A stretch of 29,688 nt of DNA from a virus. The stretch's first letter is position 1. The number at the start of each line of letters is the position of its first letter. The stretch spans positions 1 through 29,688 of IMG/VR virus record IMGVR_UViG_3300041955_001940; one strand, given 5' to 3'. A program made the position numbers and the translations under genes. This document shows, piece by piece, positions 4,822 to 29,688 of this stretch. The notes under the pieces were generated by a model. It saw nothing but the letters and a program-made list of their open reading frames with translations. It made no database searches and was not told where the DNA came from.

Positions 4822-5235
4822 TTGCGGGCTCAAGAACATTATATGCCCCTTTTTCTCAACCCAAAATTGCGCCTTGCCCTCATCAAGTTGCAAGCTGACA
4901 AAGAACTCGGGCCTTCTTACGCTGCATTGTACGCGCTCAACGAAGGATTACATGTATTGAAGTATCTGGGTGAAGAGGACTATCAAGTTTTCAAGAAACG
5001 GTACAGCCAGAAACTTGTAAGTGATGCACAGCAAAAACTGGTTCCTCTGGTGAATATGCAAGAGGTCAAAGAAAGCGAGGGCATGACTAAACAGTTCAGC
5101 ATGGTAATAGACCAGTGGCAGCTGCATCCTGACATGGTGTGGCGCCAGCGATGGGCTAAGAAAGCCCGTGAATACGAGAACCGCGTGCCAAACGCCAAAT
5201 ACATAATTGAACTCGCAGCAAAGGAGGACTCTTGA
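4822..5235 (+). CDS. hypothetical helical protein, 137 aa
   Basis: The preferred start is TTG 4822, 12 bases after GGAGG (4805-4809). TTG 4780 and ATG 4843 are alternatives in the same frame. The product is helical and soluble: LFLNPKLRLALIKLQADKEL, then YAALYALNEGLHVLKYLGEE, and a long amphipathic region ending NAKYIIELAAKEDS. There are no Cys pairs or membrane segments. The helix 'LRLALIKLQADKELGPSYAA' has the look of a ribbon-helix-helix or small regulatory module, but this is not certain. The last codons carry the AAGGAGG used by the following small gene. Confidence 0.65.
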   Translation: MRAQEHYMPLFLNPKLRLALIKLQADKELGPSYAALYALNEGLHVLKYLGEEDYQVFKKRYSQKLVSDAQQKLVPLVNMQEVKESEGMTKQFSMVIDQWQLHPDMVWRQRWAKKAREYENRVPNAKYIIELAAKEDS

Positions 5236-5384
5236 TTTCGCTTAGAGATTTTTCCATGCTTTTCATCGTCAAAACAGGTATACAGGTTTCTAACGCAAAT
5301 AGCCTACACTGGCGACTTTCAGTTTTATTCTCTTCATGGAAGCATGCAAGATTTCCCTGTATCATATCGGTAAGCAGATTATAG
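5232..5384 (+). CDS. hypothetical protein, 50 aa
   Basis: TTG start overlapping the previous stop, with a perfect AAGGAGG (5221-5227) four bases upstream. The product (MISLRDFSMLFIVKTGIQVS and onward) is moderately hydrophobic in the middle (LSVLFSSW) and basic at the end. The main support is the ribosome site and position; amino-acid content is not convincing by itself. Confidence 0.4.
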   Translation: MISLRDFSMLFIVKTGIQVSNANSLHWRLSVLFSSWKHARFPCIISVSRL

Positions 5385-16967: not shown

Positions 16968-19262
16968 CTGACTATTGCAATCGCGCAGAATCAAGGGTCG
17001 GGCGGAACTACTGTTTATGCGCAAGGAACAAGTACAAGCTCCACTTTAACGGTAACGTTGTATGCAACGCCGATAAGTGGAGATTTACTTATACTTTGTT
17101 TCGGCAGCATGAAAAGCGGCAGCGCATACTCTGCCATAAGTTCAATTTCCCAACCAAACGTTACTTGGGCAGCAATCGGTAATCCGCAAATTCAACAGCA
17201 ATATCTTTATTCGACTTATGGTCTTGACGGGGAAGTCTGGGTTGGCGTAGTTGGCGCAAGTGCGTCAAAAACTATTACCGTGTCTCTATCCAACTCAACT
17301 TCCTATGGTGCTATAGCTGACGTATTCGAATATAGCGGATTATTAACTTCAAGCTTTACTGATAAAACAGCATCCAATTATGGTTACGCTGCTCCACCGA
17401 CAGGATACACCACGGATACTGGCACAACGGCGACGGCAACACAAGCATCCGAATTATGGATAGGACTAACTTTTGAGGCGCCTTATAACCAATCAGAATC
17501 GCAGAGTACCCCAACTAACAGTTTTACTTTGTATGATGGGCAAGCCGTGGGTAACTCTGGTTCGCTTGCTTGCTTAACAAAAATTGTTAGCGCTACGGGG
17601 GCAGCAAATTCTGGAACTACAATGCTTAATAATGATAACCCGTGGGTTGGCTGCATCGTCACTTTCAAGGCAAAGTTAACTTCCGTGGCGGCTTCTGGCA
17701 CCATTGGTGTAGCATGTACCTATTCTAACTCAGTAACTGCGTTAACGTCTGTTGCTGCTTCGGAAACTATTGGAGTTGCTGGTAGCGCTGGAACACCCGC
17801 AGTTACTGCCTTAACAAGTGTAGCAGCATCAAAAAACATAGGCGTGGCAAATGTAGGCTCTACATCAGCTACAGCTTTATCCGCTGTTTCTGTGTCTAAA
17901 GCAATCGGCGTTGCTAACGTTTATGGCGAAGCCGTAGACTCTTTGACTTCTGTTTCCGCATCGTATTCAGTCGGCGTGGCTTGTAGCTATTCTGAAGCCG
18001 TTGACGCCTTAACGTCTGTGCCTGCATCTGGATCCGTAGGCGTAAATGGCGTAGGCTCCTCTGCCATCACCGCCTTAACTCCAGTTTCCATATCTGTTAG
18101 TGTAAGCGTAACTTATGGAAACTCAACTTCACCCAGCGCTTTAACAGCTACTCCTGCAAACGTAGCGGTAGGCGTAGCAAACAACGGTAGCTTATCAGCT
18201 TCCACCGCATTAACGTCTGTTTCTGCATCGGTCACCATAACCGTTTTAAACGACGGCAGTTCATCAGCACCAACCGCTTTAACGTTAGTTGCAGCTTCTG
18301 AAAATATAGGCGTATCTTATAGCTACTCAAACTCTGTTATTGCCTTAACTTCGGTATCGGCGTCTGGTTCAGTGGGGTTATCCAGTAGTGGCTTAGGCGC
18401 TTCGTCAGATTTAACATCTGTTCCCGTTTCTGTCAGCATAACCGTACAAAACGACGGTTCAGGAACAGCTTCAACCACTCTCACAGCCGTTCCTGCAGCA
18501 GCTTCTATAAGCATCGAAAACCTCGGCTCAGCTACAGTTATACTACTAACTATTTCGTTAACACCTGTCGATGCGTCTGGATCAATCGGAGTATTTAGCA
18601 GTGGATTAGGCGTTCCAACTGATTTATCATCTGTTTCTGCTTCAGTTGCAGTCTCTATCCAAAATGATGCCTCTTTAACTGCTGCCAATTCATTAACGCC
18701 CATATCAGCCTCAGGCACAATCAGCATAGGATATTTAGGCTCACATGTAATAATAGCGTTAAACTTTGTTTCTGCTTCAGGCGTCATCGGAGTAAGTAGC
18801 TTTAAGTCGCCTGTTGTCTCCAGTTTAACCTCTGTTCCTGTTTCCGTTTTCTTAAGTATAAGAAATAATGCTTCGCCTTCAGCCACAGCATTAACGCCTA
18901 TACAAGCCCCAGCAACTGTGTCATTAAACAGTAATGGAGCAAGCATAATTACCGTTTTATCGGCTCTGTCGGCTTTAGGCGTAGCCGGCGTATCTGAATC
19001 TGGCATCTCAATAAGCACACCGCTTACTTCAGTTCCTGTAAATGAAGCGATATCAATTCAGAATAAAGCCCGCTGGGGCATCAGCCGAAAAGCCCTGCAC
19101 ATCACAGTAACCATGACTCAACCACACATAACTCAAACTATACCGAAAACAGGCGCCATTACCCAATCAAAATTTAAAGCCGCGATAACTCAAACCGTTA
19201 ACAAAGGCAAAATAACTCAAACTAACCCTAAAAAAGGAGCAGTAAAGGAGACAAAAAATTAA
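16968..19262 (+). CDS. repeat-rich adhesin/fibre protein, 764 aa
   Basis: The coding signal starts at LTIAIAQNQGSGGTTVYAQG. No ATG, GTG or TTG stands there, so CTG 16968 after AAGGGG is the likely start; TTG 17058 or ATG 17109 would cut a clear beta domain. Residues 1-235 form a beta-sandwich-like domain ending GCIVTFKAKL. Residues 237-705 are about 21 imperfect 22-residue repeats, LTSV-x-AS-x-x-IGV plus a Ser/Gly/Thr-rich spacer. The last 50 residues carry four ITQ(T/S) motifs with Lys (ITQTVNKGKITQTNPKKG). The protein lacks Cys-rich or membrane segments. A long host-contact fibre is likely; the specific receptor is unknown. Confidence 0.65.
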   Translation: MTIAIAQNQGSGGTTVYAQGTSTSSTLTVTLYATPISGDLLILCFGSMKSGSAYSAISSISQPNVTWAAIGNPQIQQQYLYSTYGLDGEVWVGVVGASASKTITVSLSNSTSYGAIADVFEYSGLLTSSFTDKTASNYGYAAPPTGYTTDTGTTATATQASELWIGLTFEAPYNQSESQSTPTNSFTLYDGQAVGNSGSLACLTKIVSATGAANSGTTMLNNDNPWVGCIVTFKAKLTSVAASGTIGVACTYSNSVTALTSVAASETIGVAGSAGTPAVTALTSVAASKNIGVANVGSTSATALSAVSVSKAIGVANVYGEAVDSLTSVSASYSVGVACSYSEAVDALTSVPASGSVGVNGVGSSAITALTPVSISVSVSVTYGNSTSPSALTATPANVAVGVANNGSLSASTALTSVSASVTITVLNDGSSSAPTALTLVAASENIGVSYSYSNSVIALTSVSASGSVGLSSSGLGASSDLTSVPVSVSITVQNDGSGTASTTLTAVPAAASISIENLGSATVILLTISLTPVDASGSIGVFSSGLGVPTDLSSVSASVAVSIQNDASLTAANSLTPISASGTISIGYLGSHVIIALNFVSASGVIGVSSFKSPVVSSLTSVPVSVFLSIRNNASPSATALTPIQAPATVSLNSNGASIITVLSALSALGVAGVSESGISISTPLTSVPVNEAISIQNKARWGISRKALHITVTMTQPHITQTIPKTGAITQSKFKAAITQTVNKGKITQTNPKKGAVKETKN
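17676..19070 (+). repeat. degenerate 66-bp coding repeat, about 21 copies
   Basis: The DNA follows the 22-residue protein period (mostly 66 bases, some copies 69 or more). Consensus LTSVSAS-x-x-IGV-x-x-x-GS. Copies vary at many positions, unlike the two near-identical DSS arrays at the left, so this repeat is older. Confidence 0.8.
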
Positions 19263-21691: not shown

Positions 21692-22102
21692 ATGACTAAT
21701 ACAAAACCCAGAATTGGCAGAATAGCAATCGTCCAAGTTAGCGGCACAACAGTCGCATACGCACAAGGTTACGACGTGAAAGAAACAGGCAAAGCAGTCA
21801 CCGAATACAGTTTAACCCCATCGGGAACAAGCGGAGACTGGCCTTCAGTCGGGTTCAGCGGCAACAAGACAGGCACCGTAACAATCGACGCGCTCTACGT
21901 AGACAACACCTACATCACCATGTTCGAAGCAAACGCGACTGTCAGCATCATTTGCGGTCCAGCAGGCAGCAGCGGCGGCAACCCAAAAGACACATACAGC
22001 ACGATTATAACGAGTGTTCAAACAACAGTTAAGCATCCGAGTATAACAGTGCTGAAGATAACGGCGGACATTATTGCAGCTCCAACACACAGTACTTGGT
22101 AG
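21692..22102 (+). CDS. major tail tube protein (probable)
   Basis: AAAAGGAG stands 12 bases upstream, like at the capsid gene. The 136-aa product is beta-rich: RIGRIAIVQVSGTTVAYAQG, YDVKETGKAVTEYSLTPSGT, then NKTGTVTIDALYVDNTY and TVLKITADIIAAP. Length, beta content and location just before the tail-chaperone genes fit the major tail protein of siphovirus-like particles, which stacks in hexameric rings to form the tube. No diagnostic motif is visible. Confidence 0.65.
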   Translation: MTNTKPRIGRIAIVQVSGTTVAYAQGYDVKETGKAVTEYSLTPSGTSGDWPSVGFSGNKTGTVTIDALYVDNTYITMFEANATVSIICGPAGSSGGNPKDTYSTIITSVQTTVKHPSITVLKITADIIAAPTHSTW

Positions 22103-22110
22103 TGGCTTAG

Positions 22111-22479
22111 GTGAATGAAGACGAGTTAGTGCATGAAGCGCAGAGGCTTGAAGAACAACGCTTACAGCAGCTAAACATCAAAGTTAACTTTGACCCCTTC
22201 GAAACAGTCCAGGACGCTAAAGTCATACGTGAAATCTGCGATGAGAAACTCGGCGTCGTCCGTTACGGGGCCTTAACCTACAAAGAATCGCGTGAATGCA
22301 GTGCTATCGAAAGCAATGAGGACCGCACAGTCAAAACTATCTGGCTAATGCTGAAGAAAGCTTATCCGCAGTTGACGCTTGAACAGGTGGAAGCTATGCC
22401 TGTTGAGAAAGTAGCGCGTTTGGGCAGTTTGCTTGGGGAGCGCATTAAGAGTTTTTTACCAAAGAAGACATCGCCGTAA
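22111..22479 (+). CDS. tail assembly chaperone G
   Basis: GTG-started, 122 aa, right between tail-tube and tape-measure genes, the standard position for gpG of lambda-type viruses. The sequence is acidic and helical (DELVHEAQRLEEQRLQQLNI, then EQVEAMPVEKVARLGSLLGE). Near its end lies the slippery heptamer T TTT TTA in the correct phase, from which a fraction of ribosomes would continue into the T frame. G and G-T together coat the tape measure and recruit tail-tube protein. They are not in the finished virion in lambda. Confidence 0.8.
   Translation: MNEDELVHEAQRLEEQRLQQLNIKVNFDPFETVQDAKVIREICDEKLGVVRYGALTYKESRECSAIESNEDRTVKTIWLMLKKAYPQLTLEQVEAMPVEKVARLGSLLGERIKSFLPKKTSP
22452..22458 (+). 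promoter_or_regulatory. -1 frameshift slippery site TTTTTTA
   Basis: The heptamer is read as AGT TTT TTA in the G frame, i.e. X-XXY-YYZ = T-TTT-TTA. A one-base slip back gives ACC AAA GAA... and opens the T frame. A hairpin ATCCCA (22480-22485)/TGGGGT (22498-22503) lies 21 bases downstream; it is weak and includes one G-U pair. Confidence 0.75.
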
Positions 22480-22619
22480 ATCCCAGAGCGCAGAACTTGG
22501 GGTTAATCTGCCATGAATTCGGGTACACTCTTAACGAAGTTTACGAGTTGACAGCGGAGCAAATCAACTTCCTAATTTCTTGGTTAAACTGGTTTAAAGA
22601 GGCACCACAAGCGAAATGA
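22458..22619 (+). CDS. tail chaperone T extension (G-T fusion, frame -1)
   Basis: No start of its own is needed. After the slip the frame reads TKEDIAVNPRAQNLGLICHE, FGYTLNEVYELTAEQINFL and ends APQAK. The stop overlaps ATG of the tape measure. 'LGLICHEFGYTLNEVYELTAEQINFLISW' type sequences are typical of the T part of tail chaperones (an early 'n.glicHef', then 'eL...qi.fL'). The G-T product would be 169 aa. Stops at 22477-22479 in the G frame and continuous coding in the -1 frame agree with programmed frameshifting. Confidence 0.78.
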   Translation, partial: TKEDIAVNPRAQNLGLICHEFGYTLNEVYELTAEQINFLISWLNWFKEAPQAK

Positions 22620-24109
22620 GCGAAACCGACATTAACATTTTGCTTAATGCAACTGATGAGGCATCAGGCACTATAGCAGATGCCAGCGACCAGATAGACA
22701 GCAGCCTCAACGAAGTCACTGATAGCACCCAGCAAGCCACAGAAGCAACAGACACGCTTAATGAAGCAACTCAAACTGCAGGCGACACATTCACTCAGGC
22801 AGCATCACAAGCCGACGAGATTAATGCTTCTTACGGCAATGTAGCAACCGCAACAGATGAAGCCTCTAGCAGCCTGAAAGATAACGCTTTAGCTGCTTCG
22901 CAAGTTGCTGCTTCAGGTGCAGCGTTGGTTATGAGCATCAGCAATATAGAGAATGCGCAGGTTTCAGTTGACCGTGCGCACGTCTTGGTTGAAAAAGACA
23001 CTAACGCCGTCACATCAGCTCAAATTGCATATAACAAAGCCTGTGCAGAGTACGGGCCGAACAGTGAGCAGGCTCAGCTTGCAGCCAGTAAACTTCAGGC
23101 AGCGCAGGATGCTTTAACGGTTGCGCAAGAACGAGCGCAGGAAGCACAGCGAAACTTAAGCAACGACTACATGATGGCAGGCGTTCAGGTTGTGCCGACA
23201 GTTATCAGCGCCATCACGGCGCTCAGTACGCTTACGGCGGCGTGGCCAGCAGTGGCAGGGGCTGCTTCAAGTGCAACGGAAGCCTTGAGCGGTGCAATGG
23301 ATTTCTTGGCGGCTAACCCGATAATCTTGGTGATCGCGGGTATTGCAGCGTTAATTCTTGTTTTGTATGAGGCTTATGAGCATTGCGGGCCTTTTCGCGA
23401 CGCAGTTAACGAAATTGCAAAAGTATTAGGCGGAGCATTAACAGACGCTTTCAACGCTGTTAAAGATGCGTTGGAGTGGCTTTGGAACAACGTTTTGGTT
23501 CCAGTCGGCAACTTCATAGAATACTTGTTTGTCAGTCAACTGAACGCTGCCATCTACGTGATAAACGGCTTCAAAACTGCAGTAGACGACATTTACAACG
23601 CGTTAAATTGGCTTTGGCAAAACGTTTTGGTGCCAATCGGCAGATTTTTAGAAGGCACATTTCTATCTGCAATTAACATGGTTATGGCGCCCATCAACGC
23701 GTTAATCAACGGAATCAGAACTATAATGAACATAGGCAGCTCAATCGGCGGAGCCATAGGCGGCGCACTTAAAGCCATCGGCTTAGCAGAAGGCGGCATA
23801 GTTACTTCGCCTACTTACGCGTTAGTCGGTGAGGAAGGTCCTGAAGCTGTGATTCCTTTGAGTGAACCGTTTGGTAACGCGCTTAGCGACATGGGTTCTG
23901 CAGGCGGATCCAGCGGCGGAGGCGGAGGCACACAGAACATCAGTATGCAGATTTCTTCTCAGCCTACTATTCAGATTAACGGGTTAAGCAGTAACGCGAC
24001 GCTGCCAGAGATCATTGCGGCGTTAACTGATGGCGTGAACCGTGGGCAGGCTCAAAGCTTAATTGTTGCAGTTAATCGTGCGCTGCAACTGCAGCAGGCA
24101 AGGCGGTAA
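22616..24109 (+). CDS. tape measure protein
   Basis: The protein is 497 aa. Residues 1-190 are Ala/Thr/Gln/Asp-rich coiled coil, and residues 190-260 include two hydrophobic helices (PIILVIAGIAALILVLYEAY is the clearest). A duplicated 44-residue block (LEWLWNNVLVPVGNFIE and LNWLWQNVLVPIGRFLE) follows. Then comes EGGIVTSPTYALVGEEGPEA with VIPLSE, a signature seen near the end of many tape measures. This protein sets tail length; by the roughly 1.5 angstrom per residue rule the tail would be about 75 nm, quite short. ATG overlaps the G-T stop. Confidence 0.88.
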   Translation: MSETDINILLNATDEASGTIADASDQIDSSLNEVTDSTQQATEATDTLNEATQTAGDTFTQAASQADEINASYGNVATATDEASSSLKDNALAASQVAASGAALVMSISNIENAQVSVDRAHVLVEKDTNAVTSAQIAYNKACAEYGPNSEQAQLAASKLQAAQDALTVAQERAQEAQRNLSNDYMMAGVQVVPTVISAITALSTLTAAWPAVAGAASSATEALSGAMDFLAANPIILVIAGIAALILVLYEAYEHCGPFRDAVNEIAKVLGGALTDAFNAVKDALEWLWNNVLVPVGNFIEYLFVSQLNAAIYVINGFKTAVDDIYNALNWLWQNVLVPIGRFLEGTFLSAINMVMAPINALINGIRTIMNIGSSIGGAIGGALKAIGLAEGGIVTSPTYALVGEEGPEAVIPLSEPFGNALSDMGSAGGSSGGGGGTQNISMQISSQPTIQINGLSSNATLPEIIAALTDGVNRGQAQSLIVAVNRALQLQQARR

Positions 24110-28494: not shown

Positions 28495-29688
28495 CTATGT
28501 TTCAGTGGCGACTATCTTGACTTTGCCCGCCTTCAAATCCCGCAGAAAATCTTTAAGAATACGCTCGTCGTCTGGACTGATGTCTAAGCCACGGTCAGCG
28601 TTTACCTTTCCAGAATACACATTAATGTACGGTTCAAGTTTCACGTACTCTTTTTCAACCACGCCAGGATAAACACGCGGAGCATTATCGTAGACGCCGC
28701 CGACCACATCCAGTTTATTCGATTCGCCGTCGCCGCCGCTGTGACCCATCATAAAGCTGACGTAGGCTTTGCTGATGCCGCGTTCTGGCGGTGACGCTTC
28801 CTGCTCAAAGAACTTACGAAAACCATGACTTCGCACGCTCAGCGGCCCAGTGTACAATTTATGACGTGTAAGTGTTAGGCGGAAGTTGTTATGAAACTGC
28901 TTACATGACATCGGTTTACCCGTTTCTGAAATGAATAGGTAATCGCTTTTCACTCCTAAATTATCAAGGATATGTTGCCGTAGAGGCCGCCACTTCTGTA
29001 TTTCTTGAATTGCGTCCTGCGATATATAACTGAAGTACGCGAAGCCGTTGCCTTTGCGTTCATTAAAGTCCAGGCGGATCCGCTGCTTACCCGCGTCGAT
29101 TTCACGGAAAATATACTTACAGTTTACATTTACATCGACAATAACCTGCTTGATGCTCTGGCCAGACTGCAGTTCAGTCATGCAGACTGCACGGTCCCGC
29201 TGGCTCAACACAGCGAGGATACGCCTTACGTATTCGGCAGTGAAGGGTTTTTCTGGGTATTTGCGGCGGCTTCTTCTTGGAAATAACCCTTTGTTCTGGG
29301 TTAGGGGTGCTTCGTGGTAGTCGCAGAACATTTTCACTGGCAAAAAGAAGGCGGTGTAACCGTAGTTTGGGGCTTTATCTTTCAAGTCGGGGTTGTCGCG
29401 GCTGTACTCCAATGCTAAGCGTAAGGCCCAGCGGCGTTCTTCTACACTGACAGAGTTTTTCTTTGCCAAATGCAAGTCAAGAAACTGGCTGGGCGTTACC
29501 GTTATACCTTTAACGGTACATAGCCAACGGAAAAACCTCGCGAGCCCCACGGACTTTTCAGTGTAGGTGCTGCTGTTTCGGTCGTAGCGAGCTAGGAAAT
29601 CGCTTACGCAATTGTTAGCGTCAGCGAAGGCCTGAGCATCCACGGCTGAAACGCTATAGGTAAATCGGCTTTTTCTTATCCAACTCAC
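28495..29688 (-). CDS. int: tyrosine recombinase/integrase, start at window edge
   Basis: The 397-aa product ends inside the window; its GTG start is exactly at the last bases, so a longer N-terminus outside is possible. Residues 1-130 are an N-terminal SAM-like helical domain. The catalytic part has Lys 212 (ERKGN), His 288 and Arg 291 (SHGFRKFF), His 316 (MMGHSGGD) and a Tyr near 333-348 (GVYDNAPRVYPGVVEKEY). The first catalytic Arg expected after QSG is not there: the sequence reads ELQSGQSIKQVIVDV, with Ser 178 (AGC). The family resembles archaeal provirus integrases. It would insert the viral DNA at a host site, possibly a tRNA gene; no att site is visible. Convergent to the structural genes. 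Confidence 0.85.
   Translation of the reverse strand: MSWIRKSRFTYSVSAVDAQAFADANNCVSDFLARYDRNSSTYTEKSVGLARFFRWLCTVKGITVTPSQFLDLHLAKKNSVSVEERRWALRLALEYSRDNPDLKDKAPNYGYTAFFLPVKMFCDYHEAPLTQNKGLFPRRSRRKYPEKPFTAEYVRRILAVLSQRDRAVCMTELQSGQSIKQVIVDVNVNCKYIFREIDAGKQRIRLDFNERKGNGFAYFSYISQDAIQEIQKWRPLRQHILDNLGVKSDYLFISETGKPMSCKQFHNNFRLTLTRHKLYTGPLSVRSHGFRKFFEQEASPPERGISKAYVSFMMGHSGGDGESNKLDVVGGVYDNAPRVYPGVVEKEYVKLEPYINVYSGKVNADRGLDISPDDERILKDFLRDLKAGKVKIVATET

Follow-up and report, generated by a model that had tools for sequence, protein, structure and literature searches.

Putative programmed -1 frameshifting in a tail chaperone gene of Thermoproteota-associated tailed viruses

Introduction

Do two short overlapping reading frames in front of the tape measure gene of an apparently archaeal virus belong to one tail chaperone gene, the second frame being entered by a backward slip of the ribosome? 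The question arises in the IMG/VR record IMGVR_UViG_3300041955_001940, of which we analysed positions 1 to 29,688 (29,688 nt, hereafter the window). The mechanism by which phage lambda makes its proteins G and G-T from one such gene, and the spread of this mechanism among tailed phages, have been reviewed (work of Levin, Xu, Hendrix, Duda and Casjens; PMC5009743). There are few records of programmed -1 frameshifting in archaea, with one demonstrated cellular case and reports from haloarchaeal viruses (2021 review, PMC8211752), and frameshifting goes unmentioned in the main text of two papers on tailed viruses or proviruses of the Bathyarchaeia (PMC10848311, PMC11705971). Here, we present comparative and structural evidence which suggests, with a probability of roughly 0.93, that the locus is a tail chaperone gene that yields both G and G-T by a programmed -1 frameshift.

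Results

Two overlapping frames and a slippery heptamer

The G frame, a predicted tail assembly chaperone of 122 amino acids, runs on the plus strand from a GTG at 22111 to a TAA at 22477-22479. Near its 3' end lies the heptamer T TTT TTA (22452-22458), which is in phase with G: the distance from the start codon (22452-22111 = 341) leaves a remainder of 2 when divided by three, and the codons read AGT TTT TTA. In lambda, the corresponding heptamer is G GGA AAG. A TAA at 22446-22448 on the plus strand closes the -1 frame upstream, which limits access to T to the heptamer or its immediate vicinity. Beyond the slip, the T frame (22458-22619, plus strand) consists of 53 codons and a TGA (22617-22619), and contains neither ATG nor GTG, though there are two TTG codons (22497 and 22548). 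The TGA overlaps the ATG of the tape measure gene (22616-22618) in the sequence ATGA. Translation of the predicted fusion gives a G-T protein of 169 amino acids with the junction peptide ...SFLTKEDIAVNPR. The arrangement set out in the initial annotation, with a heptamer in exact phase for a -1 slip, a -1 frame open for 53 codons without a start, a stop overlapping the tape measure start and a predicted 169-residue product, is thus correct to the base.

The flanking genes are in the order expected for a frameshifted tail chaperone. Just upstream of G, a gene on the plus strand (21692-22102) encodes a probable tail tube protein of 136 amino acids, a homologue of which, with 70% identity, is located in the same place in a related contig, L021. 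Its product matches no family in Pfam or PHROG, and the name therefore rests on position and synteny. On the downstream side, the plus-strand gene at 22616-24109 encodes a tape measure protein of 497 amino acids that matches PHROG tape measure families, the best of these at 7.7e-18.

Several other features of the window were recorded. Two tandem repeat arrays, at 1-369 (24-base unit, 15.4 copies, encoding GFLNGRS(L/S) repeats) and at 1516-1873 (30-base unit, 11.9 copies, encoding GDSSQPTI(R/E)C repeats), have units that are multiples of three and keep the frame open. An open reading frame of 734 codons among the structural genes (17058-19262) is made up of degenerate repeats of the type ALTSVSASxxIGV and is perhaps a virion surface protein. 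On the minus strand, positions 28495-29688 encode an integrase resembling tyrosine recombinases, with a match to the Pfam family Phage_integrase (E 1.1e-4) that falls short of the curated cut-off. This gene is consistent with a temperate virus.

Relatives in the Bathyarchaeia

The terminase of the virus shares 78% identity with a terminase encoded on a contig from a Candidatus Bathyarchaeota metagenome-assembled genome, and the terminase search also led to ten IMG/VR contigs. The contig L021 was reached through its tail tube-like protein and its tape measure protein (52% identity). When these records were searched with G-T, two further members were added, in G009 and in the Bathyarchaeota genome itself, G001. 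An alignment of four fusions was then searched over 257 genomes of the same class, the Bathyarchaeia, and members were identified in seven of them, including two on a single 2.2-Mb contig in G063. When the whole phylum was searched with G, we also found G302, its duplicate G274, and G281; these are absent from the 257 class genomes and are probably members of a different class. With T, two additional loci were recovered in G098. The resulting comparative set of 18 G-T genes falls into ten diverged clusters. Most come from Bathyarchaeia genomes, and G homologues were aligned across the relatives (alignment A2).

Other searches gave no members. G alone had no match in the viral contigs, and neither a DNA search of phage records nor a tblastn search with a G-T protein from G063 produced any match. 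No significant homologue of G or T was found in the terminase relatives G002, G005, G006 and G008, whose tail modules are probably different ones. In G097c51, a weak match to T was rejected once the DNA was read. The archaeal host suggested in the initial annotation is supported by the terminase identity, by the members in seven class genomes and by the two copies on the 2.2-Mb contig, and the closest relatives of the virus reside in the Bathyarchaeia.

Conservation and turnover of the slippery site

If the heptamer serves as a shift site, it should be kept in the relatives, as the initial annotation recognized in calling for this comparison. We read the DNA of every member, the heptamer itself having played no part in finding them. 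An in-phase heptamer of the form X XXY YYZ was present inside the short overlap of G and T in all 18 full members, across the ten clusters: TTTTTTA in 13, TTTTTTG in two, and AAATTTT, AAATTTC and CCCTTTC in one each. The frequency of in-phase slippery heptamers in 18 related loci is 0.0046 per codon, and 13 of the 15 in-phase TTTTTTA heptamers in 46,329 codons of these loci are located at the shift site. When the chance of finding a heptamer in the overlap is multiplied over the ten clusters, the result is about 1e-10 if these are independent, a figure that overstates the case because TTTTTTA is common to some clusters by descent. A stronger argument is that the position has turned over to other heptamers. 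In most members, the T stop also overlaps or closely abuts the tape measure start; in a few, automatic selection of the longest downstream frame gave no clear answer, or the stretch of contig was broken.

The same comparison bears on two other accounts of the locus. One is that a single gene has been split by a spurious insertion or deletion in the T run, introduced in sequencing or assembly, as some sequencing methods tend to make errors in homopolymers. We regard this as extremely improbable: the paired frames are found again in other, independent metagenomes and genome assemblies, also in versions that lack a homopolymer run, and an identical error would have had to arise in every relative. 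This contradicts the joining of the frames by an assembly error that the initial annotation had named as its possible undoing. The other is that RNA polymerase adds or drops bases on the run of six T, yielding an edited mRNA that is read in one frame. RNA polymerases are well known to slip on homopolymers and most members have the six-T run, but six T is short for efficient transcriptional slippage. Furthermore, the site lies in the exact phase for a tandem slip, and the relatives with AAATTTT, AAATTTC or CCCTTTC at the same place have no long homopolymer. We therefore think it improbable that slippage occurs at the level of transcription.

Two loci outside the full set are informative about the link between the site and T. 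G095 (L063, reverse strand, 4901-5269) has a clear homologue of G (E 2.3e-43) but neither an in-phase heptamer nor T, its G running into the tape measure start, and G097c35, a broken copy, has no intact site. Retention or loss of the heptamer thus tends to go with that of T, as judged from one clear and one decayed case. The initial annotation had considered that relatives might lack the heptamer and give T a start of its own; the relative that lacks the heptamer lacks T as well.

T as a conserved protein segment

Across the ten clusters, T contains invariant residues (alignment A5). The dN/dS ratio of T beyond the G stop is 0.00-0.17 in the group of L021, G097 and G098, 0.13 in G063 and 0.08 in the pair G098c30/c133. 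The values are less clear for G154 (0.38) and for G001/L055 (0.58), with few changes in both, and no ratio can be computed for the T of the window because its synonymous sites are saturated. These ratios suggest that T is mostly under purifying selection. The model of T is a small helical domain (pLDDT 92) with weak matches only.

Could T instead be a small gene with its own start, such as the TTG at 22497, or one translated by coupling, with no frameshift at all? TTG codons occur in the T of most members and TTG starts are used by archaea. However, the possible start codons vary in kind and place and are missing altogether from G154c38, so that the 18 members share a conserved T protein sequence without a conserved start of its own. 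The conserved block in the alignment begins ahead of a point a few codons beyond the TTG at 22497, and a separate gene would leave the in-phase heptamers without explanation. We consider a separate T gene very improbable, and favor entry into T from the G frame by a -1 slip.

A chaperone-like fold for G

The initial annotation had read the -1 frame as a typical T segment. Neither G nor T had a significant match in Pfam or PHROG, a result that leaves room for distant homology. A profile search of PDB sequences with G found nothing. A structural model of G was predicted with AlphaFold2 from 15 G sequences (pLDDT 81). Foldseek gave no significant match to this model in the PDB. When PDB chains were re-aligned to G with VIA, the three best were the tail assembly chaperone of HK97 (2ob9, Z 6.7), YqbN (3klu, Z 6.5) and 3fgx (Z 6.3), with 10-15% identity and an rmsd of 4.0-6.2, followed by an unrelated chain with Z 3.0. 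Several matches to G in BFVD are named tail assembly chaperone, none of them with E < 0.001. Z-scores near 6.5 are middling, yet the gap to the next chain and the kind of proteins matched are telling, and the model supports an HK97-type tail chaperone fold for G.

Elements that may stimulate the shift

No conserved downstream RNA structure was found across the relatives, only scattered z-scores below -2, nor was a consistent upstream Shine-Dalgarno sequence, which is fair in some members and absent in others. In the window, GGGGAG (22435-22440, plus strand), 11 bases upstream of the heptamer, is a candidate internal Shine-Dalgarno-like element. Its pairing energy of -6.4 kcal/mol is also reached at 6% of positions along the gene, and it is not kept in all relatives.

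Discussion

Gene order, the conservation and turnover of the heptamer, selection on T in most pairs, the predicted fold of G and the joint loss of T and heptamer all support the programmed -1 shift proposed in the initial annotation. In the mechanism that we infer, most ribosomes would stop at 22477-22479 and release the 122-residue G chaperone, and a minority would shift by one base in the 5' direction at T TTT TTA. The tRNAs that had paired with TTT and TTA would then pair with TTT and TTT, and these ribosomes would continue through T to give the 169-residue G-T protein. By analogy with lambda, G would coat the product of the adjacent tape measure gene, the T domain would recruit tail tube subunits, and the slip rate would set the ratio of G to G-T needed in tail assembly.

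The likeness to gpG and gpGT of lambda lies in a chaperone gene that directly precedes the one for the tape measure, a -1 slip near the end of G and a T segment in the -1 frame, whereas Pfam and PHROG detect no sequence similarity and the host lineage is apparently archaeal. Among archaeal tailed viruses, HVTV-1, HCTV-1, HCTV-2 and HCTV-5 very likely use -1 frameshifting for G-T (PMC5009743; repeated in PMC8211752), and +1 frameshifting is very likely in HSTV-2 (PMC5009743). The HCTV-5 record contains two annotated products, one of them joined, between the tail tube and tape measure genes, and we found G GGA AAG in phase in its chaperone gene. HCTV-5 thus resembles the window in having an in-phase heptamer, but differs in the heptamer itself, in a longer and dissimilar T, and in a host from the Halobacteria rather than the Thermoproteota.

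Two viruses of methanogens deserve a remark in their own right. In the Methanothermobacter virus psiM2 (L096, NC_001902, 13209-13948), ORF19, which has no detectable sequence relation to the genes studied here, ends with an in-phase A AAA AAG (13712) followed by a T-like -1 frame open to 13948, where the record annotates no frameshift. In the Methanobacterium virus Drs3 (L095, MH674343, 23208-23793), the open reading frame before a large gene of tape measure size has no -1 extension, and a T-like frame in +1 (23635-23793) suggests a +1 or -2 shift.

The proposal in the initial annotation that the mechanism is kept across domains is not new, because -1 frameshifting of G and G-T had already been reported for haloarchaeal viruses (PMC5009743, PMC8211752). 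With these precedents and that of lambda, the mechanism itself is known, and the window represents a well-supported addition that, on comparative grounds, appears to extend the G/G-T frameshift to viruses of the Thermoproteota. The lack of a conserved RNA or Shine-Dalgarno stimulator raises the thought that Thermoproteota ribosomes may set the ratio of G to G-T by the heptamer alone. We offer only tentatively, as somewhat doubtful, the broader proposal that viruses of the Bathyarchaeia and of a probable second Thermoproteota class use a -1 shift with five interchanging heptamers and obtain the ratio in this way. The ten Thermoproteota-associated chaperone clusters provide a ready comparative set for studies of slippage on archaeal ribosomes, and they suggest that the G/G-T device may be an old part of tailed viruses.
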